38,961 nt of DNA from NCBI GenBank assembly GCA_024229615.1, contig JAAESG010000031.1, forward strand, positions 1 through 38,961, given 5' to 3'. A program made the position numbers and the translations under genes. Each line of letters opens with the position of its first letter. Position 1 is the stretch's first letter. Positions 13,662-36,258 of the stretch are shown here, one piece after another. This DNA comes from Gammaproteobacteria bacterium. Lineage in GTDB: Bacteria; Pseudomonadota; Gammaproteobacteria; GCA-001735895. The notes beneath the pieces are model-generated. The model worked only from the letters and a program-made list of their open reading frames with translations, had not been told where the DNA came from and made no database searches.

Positions 13662-13696
13662 CATGGCAAAATAACCCGGTAACGACAAGCGGGGGT

Positions 13697-14050
13697 AGTA
13701 CTCCTTCAATGAGATATCTTAGGATGCAGAGCGCCCCAAATTGGCCAAGGCAAGTGATGCGGCACCCCGACGCAGTCCGCAGGGAAGACCCAAAGCACTC
13801 GCTGCGCTCGCGGGGCCAGCCTTGGCATGCCCTTTACAAGGACTGTAACGCGGCATTGGCCAATTTGGGGCGCTCCCTTCGGGCCAGTCAGGAAGCGGTC
13901 ATACCCAAAGCATTCGCTTCGCTCATGGGGCAGGCTATCTGCGTTGTTGTGCTCCCTTGAATTAGCTACGGCTAGTCCTGCGGTCGCACGCCTAGCAGCT
14001 AACCGCTTCCTGACTGGCTGCATCCTAAGATATCTCATTGAAGGAGTACT
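13697..14050. repeat. 354 bp nested inverted repeat able to form a three-way junction
   Basis: Three perfect inverted-repeat pairs are arranged A-B-B'-C-C'-A'. A is 33 bp (13697-13729 with 14018-14050), B is 20 bp (13729-13748 with 13857-13876) and C is 17 bp (13884-13900 with 14002-14018). B abuts A on the left and C' abuts A' on the right, so a single strand can fold as a Y: stem A with two long-loop hairpins. The B and C loops carry related direct repeats (13788-13817 and 13904-13933, both starting ACCCAAAGCA and containing TCGCT-CGCTC-GGGGC), so the two lobes seem to have arisen by duplication. The ORFs across it on both strands are low-complexity translations of the repeat and are not called. 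Confidence 0.85.
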
Positions 14051-14054
14051 CAAA

Positions 14055-14546
14055 TTGAACGATTCAGATAGTGCGCAACAGGAATTCCTGAACTTGCGCG
14101 ACAGTGCCAACAACGCACACCTGGCGACTCTCTCCAGTGACGGTAGCCCCGAAGCCAGTTATGCCCCCTGCATTTGTTATCAGGGGGATTGTTATTTTTT
14201 TCTGAGTGAACTCGCGAGCCATACCGGCAATCTAACGCGAAATCCCGAAATCAGTCTGTTACTCATTGAATCTGTGGCCACGACCGCTAACGCGTTTGCG
14301 CGCCGGCGCATCAGCCTGCACGGAAATGCGCTTCGGGTCAGCCGGGATAATGATTTATGTAATCTCGTATTGGCTGAGTTTCGAGACCGGTTCGGCAAGG
14401 TGATGGATGTGATCGGGGAGCTTCCGGACTTCCATTTGTTTCGTGTGCAGGCACGGGCAGGTCGATTTGTTCGAGGCTTCGGGCAAACTTATGAATTGGT
14501 CGGAGAGAAACTTGATCATTTGCGAGCTGTCGATCCCAGGAGGTAA
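14055..14546 (+). CDS. Pyridoxamine-5'-phosphate oxidase-fold protein, HugZ-like
   Basis: A 163-residue split-barrel FMN/haem-binding protein. The N-terminus (AHLATLSSDGSPEASYAPCICYQGDCYFFLSELASHTGNL) is the typical PPOX strand pattern, and the C-terminal RAGRFVRGFGQTYEL motif is characteristic of the HugZ/HutZ haem-utilisation subgroup. The start is taken as TTG 14055 because AAGGAG at 14041-14046 is correctly spaced. That ribosome binding site is inside the right arm of the large inverted repeat. In-frame codons upstream (from 13827) would only translate repeat DNA. No haem-transport genes are adjacent, so a haem-degradation role is only a family inference. Confidence 0.82.
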   Translation: MNDSDSAQQEFLNLRDSANNAHLATLSSDGSPEASYAPCICYQGDCYFFLSELASHTGNLTRNPEISLLLIESVATTANAFARRRISLHGNALRVSRDNDLCNLVLAEFRDRFGKVMDVIGELPDFHLFRVQARAGRFVRGFGQTYELVGEKLDHLRAVDPRR

Positions 14547-33849: not shown

Positions 33850-36258
33850 GTGGCTGACCAGTGCGTCCAGGTTGTTATCATCGGTGGCGGTGCTATCGGT
33901 CTCAGCGTGGCATATCATCTGGGCCAGCTTGGGGTGACGGATGTGCTGTTGCTCGAACGTGATCGATTGACCAGTGGAACCAGCTGGCACGCCGCCGGTA
34001 TCGTCGGGCCGTTACGGGCGAGTATGAATCTGACCCGGCTGGCCAGATACGCGCTCGAGCTGTTCGTCGATCTCGAACTGGCTAGCGGCCAGGCAACCGG
34101 ATACCAGCAAACCGGCGGGGTCTGGCTGGCTCAGCATCCGGCACGTATGCTTGAACTAAAACGCATCAAGGCGATGGGTGACCGCAGTCAATTGCATACG
34201 GAGATTTTATCAGCTGACGAAATTCTCCAACGCCTGCCGTTCCTAAACACCGATGATCTCGCCGGCGGCATGTGGGTCGAGCAGGATGGTCAGGTTAATC
34301 CTGTCGATTTGTGTATGGCCTATGCAAAGGCCGCGAAAGTACTGGGCGTGGAAATGCGTGAGCAGTGCCGGGTTAGGGATATCGAGACAATGAACGCGGA
34401 AGTGTCTGCGGTGGTGCTGGCCGATGGAACCCGGATCGAATGTAACAAGCTGGTGATTTGCGCCGGCGCCTGGTCCCGCCAACTCGGTGCCATGGCTGGC
34501 GTCGAAATCCCGCTAGCTGCCTGCGAACATATGTATGTCGTTACCGATGTCATCGAAGAATTGCCTCAACCCTGTCCCATCATCCGTGATCTCGAAGCAG
34601 GGGTGTATCTCAAGGGTGACAATGGAAAACTGGTCCTTGGTGCCTTTGAGGCTAACCCCAAACTCTGGTCACCGCAGCAGCAGGATGCCGGTTTTCTGAT
34701 GTTCGATGAAGACTGGGACCATGCTCAACCCATGCTCGAGGCTGGCATCAACCGAGCCCCGATAATTACCGCACAGGGTATCACCCATTTCATGAATGGG
34801 CCCGAGAGTTTCACCCCGGATACGAAACAGATCATGGGTGCGGCGCCCAGCTGTAAAAATCTGTTTGTTGCGGCTGGCTTCAACTCGATCGGAATTATGT
34901 CATCTGCCGGCGTCGGCAAGGTCATGGCCGAGTGGATCAGGGATGGTGAAGCACCCTTTGACCTTTGGGAAGTCGATATCGCGCGTCTCGATCCATTACA
35001 GTGCTGCGATAAGTACCTGTCGCAACGTATTCCTGAGGCTGTACACAATCAGTTCGCCATGCATTGGCCCTACAAACAATTCAACAGCGGACGTAACCTG
35101 CGTCAATCCGCCTGGCATGATTTGCTGGAGCAAAAAGGTGCTGTGTTTGGTGCCCCCAGTGGCTGGGAGCGTCCGTTGTGGTTCGCCGCTAACGAGACCG
35201 AGGCAGAGTTTGAGTACAGTTACAGTTCACAATGCTGGTGGCCGGCAGCCCGACGCGAGGCGAGGCATTGCCAGCGGGCCGTGAGCCTGTTCGAACTCAG
35301 TCCATTCAGCAAGATTGATATCAGTGGCCCTGATGCCCTGGCATTGCTGCAAACGGTTTGTTGCGGCGATATCGATATCGAAACGAGCCGGGTGCTTTAC
35401 AGCCTGATGTTGAATCAACGCGGCGGCATCGAGGCCGAAGTCACTGTGACGCGTTTGGCAGCGGATCGGTTTCGCGTCATCAGTGGTGCAGCGACACGAT
35501 TCAAGGATGTTTACTGGTTACAAAAACATCGTGAAGACGCAATGGACGTCGAAGTTCGCGATGTCACCGAGGAATACGCGGTGCTCGGCATCATGGGGCC
35601 GAGATCGCGTGACTTGTTGCGAGACCTGAGTGATACGAGTTTTAGCGATACGAATTTTCCTTTCTCGACCACGCAATCGGTACGTATTGCAAGTTGCGAG
35701 TTACTCGTAACACGACTTAGTTTTGTCGGTGAGTTGGGCTGGGAACTTTATATTCCTGTTACCCAGGCGGTGCGGGTACTTACCGAAGTGCTGCGCGTCG
35801 GAGAAGTTTACGAGCTTGGACTCGCCGGGCATTTCGCGCTCGATAGCTGCCGCATGGAAAAAGGATATCGTCACTGGGGTCACGATATGGGTGCCGATGA
35901 CACGCCCTACGAAGTAGGTCTCGGGTTCACTGTAAATTTTGATAAAAAGATTGAATTCAAAGGCAAACAGGCATTGCTCGAACAAAGGCAACGCGGATGG
36001 AACAAGCAATTGAAACTCTGTGAAGTAGCAGCCGACGAAGTCCTGGTTTTGCACGATGAACCGGTTTACCTGGGCAGCGAGATCGTCGGTCACTGCACCT
36101 CGGGTGCGCTTGGCTTCCGCACAGACAGAACTTTATGTTTGGTAATGTTTTATCAACGCGGAATGAATGAGCCCGCCGAGTATCAAATTGAAATTGCGGA
36201 TCGTCGTTTCGGGCTCGATGTTCTCGACCAGGCCCCGTACCAGGTAAATATGAAATGA
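33850..36258 (+). CDS. FAD-dependent demethylase, dimethylglycine/sarcosine dehydrogenase family (copy 1)
   Basis: An 802-residue two-domain enzyme. The N-terminal DAO-fold domain binds FAD (IIGGGAIGLSVAYHLGQLG) and carries SGTSWHAAG, whose His47 corresponds to the covalent flavin attachment site in DMGDH/SARDH. The C-terminal half (about residues 430-800) is a GcvT-like tetrahydrofolate-binding domain (CRMEKGYRHWGHDMGADDTPYEVGLGFTV), so oxidative N-demethylation would yield 5,10-methylene-THF. The GTG start at 33850 follows a purine-rich GGGGGAAA. It lies 64 bp after the MttB-like gene and overlaps copy 2 by 4 bp. Substrate (dimethylglycine, sarcosine or another N-methyl amino acid) is uncertain. 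Confidence 0.9.
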   Translation: MADQCVQVVIIGGGAIGLSVAYHLGQLGVTDVLLLERDRLTSGTSWHAAGIVGPLRASMNLTRLARYALELFVDLELASGQATGYQQTGGVWLAQHPARMLELKRIKAMGDRSQLHTEILSADEILQRLPFLNTDDLAGGMWVEQDGQVNPVDLCMAYAKAAKVLGVEMREQCRVRDIETMNAEVSAVVLADGTRIECNKLVICAGAWSRQLGAMAGVEIPLAACEHMYVVTDVIEELPQPCPIIRDLEAGVYLKGDNGKLVLGAFEANPKLWSPQQQDAGFLMFDEDWDHAQPMLEAGINRAPIITAQGITHFMNGPESFTPDTKQIMGAAPSCKNLFVAAGFNSIGIMSSAGVGKVMAEWIRDGEAPFDLWEVDIARLDPLQCCDKYLSQRIPEAVHNQFAMHWPYKQFNSGRNLRQSAWHDLLEQKGAVFGAPSGWERPLWFAANETEAEFEYSYSSQCWWPAARREARHCQRAVSLFELSPFSKIDISGPDALALLQTVCCGDIDIETSRVLYSLMLNQRGGIEAEVTVTRLAADRFRVISGAATRFKDVYWLQKHREDAMDVEVRDVTEEYAVLGIMGPRSRDLLRDLSDTSFSDTNFPFSTTQSVRIASCELLVTRLSFVGELGWELYIPVTQAVRVLTEVLRVGEVYELGLAGHFALDSCRMEKGYRHWGHDMGADDTPYEVGLGFTVNFDKKIEFKGKQALLEQRQRGWNKQLKLCEVAADEVLVLHDEPVYLGSEIVGHCTSGALGFRTDRTLCLVMFYQRGMNEPAEYQIEIADRRFGLDVLDQAPYQVNMK

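Follow-up and report, generated by a model that had tools for sequence, protein, structure and literature searches.

MITEs tend to be viewed as transposons that have shrunk, with an interior that is usually regarded as debris. RUP of Streptococcus pneumoniae, a MITE attributed to IS630-Spn1, is 107 bp long with 9-bp ends, and the RNA of NEMIS has been proposed as a substrate of RNase III (PMC2229807). Empty alleles with a single TA, together with duplication of this TA at filled sites, are the signature of IS630/Tc1-mariner transposition (PMC2170065). Here we describe an element of 352 nt (13698-14049), flanked by a 2-bp target duplication, in a gammaproteobacterial contig of which the whole analyzed stretch of 38,961 nt is called the window. 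Its strand-polarised twin-hairpin core is unusual for an IS630-type MITE and is conserved; no description of this core was found in the open-licence literature searched, and an earlier one is possible.

Three inverted repeats make up the element, namely A (13697-13729/14018-14050, 33 nt, 100%), B (13729-13751/13853-13875, 23 nt at 96%, the first 20 perfect) and C (13883-13899/14002-14018, 17 nt, 100%). Their nested order A-B-B'-C-C'-A', already noticed in the sequence-only reading of this DNA, is real, and the 354-nt stretch folds far beyond its shuffled versions (z of -13.5 as DNA and -12.4 as RNA, with 0 of 100 shuffles equal to it). The junctions, held in that reading to be without gaps, turned out otherwise: arms A and B share one overlapping base, and the linker CCTTCGG keeps B' apart from C, with an equal 7-nt gap throughout the family. 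Module B is homologous to the reverse complement of module C, hence the element consists of a ~97-nt hairpin that is present twice, head to head. The earlier suggestion that one lobe had duplicated, drawn from related direct repeats of ~30 nt in the loops (29 nt, 13788-13816 and 13903-13931, 86%), thus holds in the sense that the lobes are inverted copies of one module, while the direct repeat itself belongs to an insert of ~36 nt which is carried by the longer copies, that of the window included, is absent from the short ones (~268 nt) and arrived later than the module pair. At L091 a further copy of the insert repeat is nested inside the insert. The repeat of ~30-36 nt, CCCAAAGCAYTCGCTKCGCTCRYGGGGC, inserted into hairpins and also found outside them, was observed at 13787-13822/13903-13938 of the window, at L022 (1397-1424) and at L082, L084 and L085, and may be a still smaller mobile hairpin. 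The parts of the element are listed in Table 1.

Table 1. Features of the element and its target site in the window.
Feature	Position	Strand	Basis
Target duplication, left copy, TA	13696..13697		Empty sites in relatives
Outer arm A, left terminal inverted repeat, 31 nt	13698..13728	+	Matches IS630-family ends
Hairpin module B	13729..13875	+ (sense)	Stem 13729-13748 with 13856-13875; covariance model, E 2.6e-7
Insert of ~36 nt in module B, with one copy of the 29-nt direct repeat	13787..13822	+	Element comparison; missing from short relatives, e.g. L078
7-nt linker CCTTCGG, pattern CCNNNGG family-wide	13876..13882		Sequence comparison
Hairpin module C	13883..14018	- (sense)	Stem 13883-13899 with 14002-14018; homology to B
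Insert of ~36 nt in module C, with the second direct repeat copy	13903..13938 (edges approximate)	+	Element comparison
Outer arm A', right terminal inverted repeat, 31 nt	14019..14049	-	Inverted-repeat comparison
AAGGAG in right arm, likely ribosome-binding site from the element	14041..14046	+	Sequence; ORF
Target duplication, right copy, TA decayed to TC	14050..14051		Length match with empty sites

A whole-genome search, an alignment of the copies, a covariance model and a comparison of filled with empty sites all bear out an element family. The genome of the window itself (735 contigs, 5.24 Mb) holds 80 matches, which range from near-complete copies down to single arms. Across the genus, 32 elements have both ends and measure 67-413 nt, mostly 240-377 nt; they fall into several subfamilies that differ in the outer arms. 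A one-off local rearrangement, which the sequence-only reading had reserved for arms occurring once only with neither covariation nor movement, is refuted by this multicopy family with its filled and empty sites and by the covariation described below; we reject it as having virtually no chance of being right. The covariance model, built from 37 aligned modules, matches module C of the window at 13921-14018 (E 2.3e-8). With a cut-off of E up to 1e-5 it finds the module in 22 of the 31 genus genomes and, class-wide, in 114 of 369 sampled Gammaproteobacteria genomes, or 88 of 271 genera; this class-wide tally is one of modules, and the paired architecture was checked on the 71 loci that were read. 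There, 48 loci have a close module pair, which is head to head in every case and has the 7-nt gap in 46. The named records with an exact match to 25 nt of the arm are metagenome assemblies from uncultured Gammaproteobacteria or Proteobacteria, and the element was not found in the E. coli, plasmid and phage collections.

Several loci show how such elements combine with other sequences. Among L080, L162 and L163 (G021), L080 has a core nearly that of the window subfamily and very different outer arms (GTGGTCGAACAA...), which suggests that ends and core have been exchanged. The right flank of L006 (G000 C1, ~35716-35870) carries a second repeat, GGGAAGCTCTGCA...TGCAGAGATTCCC, with CTAG-like ends, which directly adjoins the element; several ~90% copies of it occur in G044, and it looks like another TA-target MITE. 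Two different twin-hairpin elements, L277 (29-566, in G152) and L279, have one end in common, which looks like an insertion of one element into the terminal TA of its neighbour.

Regarding the insertion itself, the locus of the window lies between a gene for a flagellar rod protein of the FlgE/F/G type and a PNPOx-family gene, and it is empty in relatives such as G009 and G007, where 14 nt separate the same conserved flanking bases; in the filled allele these flanks enclose 9 nt, TA, the 352-nt element, TC and 3 nt. Empty alleles at other sites carry a single TA with no gap (e.g. CACTAG at the L032 site). Filled and empty sites, the target duplication, the many copies and strong covariation together support the earlier proposal of a structured mobile DNA unit. 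The deep covariation and the wide distribution would also suit a host RNA gene or riboregulator that was repeated by chance and for which mobility is secondary. We give very little credence to this possibility, since the same loci are empty in sister species, the neighbour genes vary between copies and the TA duplications are exact, and Rfam gave no match at the gathering threshold over the window and none at E up to 5 around the element. An identity with integron attC sites was also weighed; conserved boxes at the stem foot were not seen.

Within the genus, most copies have TA on either side, which stands on the left of 23 of the 32 elements and on the right of 25; the base 5' of it is C or T in 27 of 32, and the base 3' is G or A, again in 27 of 32. 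Beyond the genus, TA adjoins at least one arm end in 44 of the 48 paired loci. The target appears to be a wider YTAR preference and no strict CTAG, the sequence reportedly preferred by IS630. As to the ends, the same genome contains the relic of a DDE_3 transposase, whose ends CTAGTACTTCTTCAATCTTATAAATTAGGATAAAG are identical to the CTAGTACTCCTTCAATGAGATATCTTAGGATGCAG of the subfamily at 27 of 35 positions, including 14 of the first 15. An IS630-family copy of ~1.39 kb in G004, with a broken transposase frame and CTAGTACTCC ends, is identical to the element at up to 25 of 35 positions. In G227, which belongs to another family, the ends CTAGTACATCGACCAGTTTATATTGACGGATAG of an IS630-family element are of the same type as those of our element, and an element arm in G193 is of a type similar to these G227 ends. 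From the match of the 31-nt arms with IS630-family terminal inverted repeats, the element is seen as a MITE of IS630/Tc1-mariner type, and the TA duplication, the YTAR/CTAG target and the shared terminal repeats of 31-34 nt together indicate a DDE transposase of that group.

These features leave without support the hairpin-processing transposase of Y1/REP type that had been considered when only the letters were read. An alternative mobiliser is a Y1 (HUH) transposase that would recognise the hairpins and move the element, REPIN-like, as single-stranded DNA. Such a system would indeed agree with the inverted hairpin pair and its compensatory changes, as known for REPINs (PMC3116915), and the strand polarity of the hairpins would fit a protein that binds single-stranded DNA. 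Nevertheless it is highly improbable in view of the 2-bp TA duplication and the long terminal repeats homologous to IS630-family ends, two features that a REPIN is expected to lack and that are both present here.

A transposase with matching ends, which the sequence-only reading had proposed to look for, was met only as relics or interrupted copies; none is intact in the 31 genus genomes, which is weak evidence since the assembly of the window's own genome is fragmented. The DDE_3 Pfam domain is missing in 17 of 24 carriers examined outside the genus. In many genomes the mobiliser may have disappeared or fall into a gap of the assembly, or a different transposase may do its work. The IS630 copies of G152 were considered as the mobiliser of the G152 elements and rejected, those examined having different ends.

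In spite of their divergence, the stems remain paired. Parsing of 28 elements into outer arms, stems and linker shows that 92.8% of the arm pairs are Watson-Crick, as against 64.9% in shuffled controls; two or more Watson-Crick forms are seen at 55 of 67 pairs. In the 37 modules, two-sided changes occur in 21 of 25 consensus pairs, the inner helix included. One process able to yield such a pattern is template switching, by which one arm is copied onto the other (quasipalindrome correction), so that the hairpins would have no function and the element would be a passive MITE. Template switching is known in bacteria and makes multi-base compensatory changes (PMC8794818, PMC7202029), and adjacent double changes do occur in the stems of the element, e.g. 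GCGCCCC to GCGTTCC with the matching partner. We consider it an unlikely explanation all the same, because the loops are also conserved in sequence across genera, as are the lengths of module and linker, and because template switching is strand-blind and alone would not yield the polarity of mismatches that was found.

For this polarity, the sense orientation of a module was set by its loop sequence and mismatches were counted as distinct contexts. On the sense strand G.T mismatches outnumber A.C mismatches in the stems by 157 to 29, with a G.T excess in 32 of 33 informative genomes, and when modules were instead parsed out of complete elements, with no use of the covariance model, the count was 51 vs 13. 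In 36 of 37 genomes the sense strand is predicted to form the more stable RNA fold, with a mean advantage of 6.8 kcal/mol. Read whole in the orientation of the transcript, the elements have no mismatch bias (40 vs 39), as is expected if one module alone matters per transcript; the bias emerges only with each module taken in its own orientation. The count for the outer arms (21 vs 20) is no true polarity control, since neither arm has an inherent orientation. The G.T excess could alternatively stem from a mutation process with strand bias; G and C in the stems are near balance (1559 vs 1354). As modelled here, the polarity suggests strand-specific selection on a single-stranded hairpin that tolerates wobble pairs, most likely RNA. 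RNA is favoured over single-stranded DNA, the less probable form, as many elements are located between co-directional genes. For the inner hairpins, the strand-polarised wobble pairs lend some favour to the RNA element that the earlier reading had offered as an option.

Taken together, the element is probably an IS630/Tc1-mariner-type MITE whose strand-polarised twin-hairpin core is kept mainly by selection on single-stranded hairpins. Judged from sequence, its class of mobilisation appears well supported, and the role of its hairpins is put forward as a hypothesis. An IS630-family transposase supplied in trans would bind the 31-nt terminal repeats, excise the element and paste it into a TA, preferably in YTAR/CTAG context, with duplication of this TA. 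In this model the insertion, the TA duplication, the homology of the ends and the two head-to-head modules of ~97 nt are the observed parts. The head-to-head order implies that transcription from either side meets a sense-orientation module first. Covariation and the G.T over A.C polarity are consistent with stems that would be kept paired mainly by selection for the single-stranded hairpin of the sense strand. For an element within an operon, the most likely role would be that of an RNA hairpin just past the stop codon of the upstream gene, where it might shield the message upstream, as proposed for REP elements, and make the insertion tolerable.

The genomic setting is as follows. In 19 of the 32 elements the target TA is formed by the first two bases of the stop codon of the upstream gene, with the first G of the element completing TAG, and an open frame begins within 20 nt downstream in about 17 of 32. 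In the window, the AAGGAG of the right end stands 8 nt before a TTG start at 14055. The stop-codon placement is in large excess vs all tolerated TA sites, and no such excess exists vs the tolerated CTAG sites in the window, 5 of 8 of which are stop codons, so that stop-codon targeting as a special adaptation is weakened as a candidate; the CTAG/YTAR preference and the loss of gene-breaking insertions may explain most of this placement. Many sites in G000 (L025, L020, L024, L027, L028) retain single or collapsed outer arms, some of which place AAGGAG a few bases 5' of a start codon. From their sequence, such collapsed arms could possibly be portable ribosome-binding sites that remain once the core is lost.

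The interior of this element is highly constrained, as its module occurs in the 88 sampled genera mentioned above with stems that are rewritten yet paired. This permits a direct test of whether a small selfish repeat owes its life inside operons to a structural function that it carries, and the family supplies a large natural data set in which selection and template switching can be told apart as sources of compensatory changes. A more far-reaching reading, tentative and rather doubtful, is that one unrecognised transposon family of ~268 bp across Gammaproteobacteria is a direction-independent RNA carrier, whose two head-to-head modules would make transcription from either flank give the same functional hairpin first, and which protects the operons it enters and has swapped its ends to suit successive IS630-family transposases.

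Compared with the known systems, the element is like RUP in being non-autonomous and intergenic, with a TA target and IS630-family-like ends (PMC2229807). It differs in its size of ~268 bp or more, its 31-nt ends and its two conserved head-to-head modules, RUP being without such a core. Correia/NEMIS and ERIC are likewise MITEs with TA at their termini and folded transcripts (PMC2229807), but theirs is a single long stem-loop closed by the ends, whereas here an outer stem surrounds two inner hairpins, and the sequence is unrelated to theirs. The CIR elements of Caulobacter and Brucella also have two long inverted-repeat arms and a linker (PMC2229807); they lack terminal inverted repeats and their mobility is unclear, in contrast to the terminal repeats and the TA duplication of the present element. 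REPINs, the REP doublets moved by RAYT transposases, resemble it in the inverted palindrome pair, the conserved length and the compensatory changes (PMC3116915), while the TA duplication, the IS630-like ends and hairpins of ~97 nt, as against the short REPs, set it apart. QMITE of Coxiella burnetii belongs, like the family here, to the gammaproteobacterial MITEs with stable folded transcripts, yet its direct repeats are non-TA and no homologues elsewhere are reported (PMC5896051), whereas the present family is class-wide.
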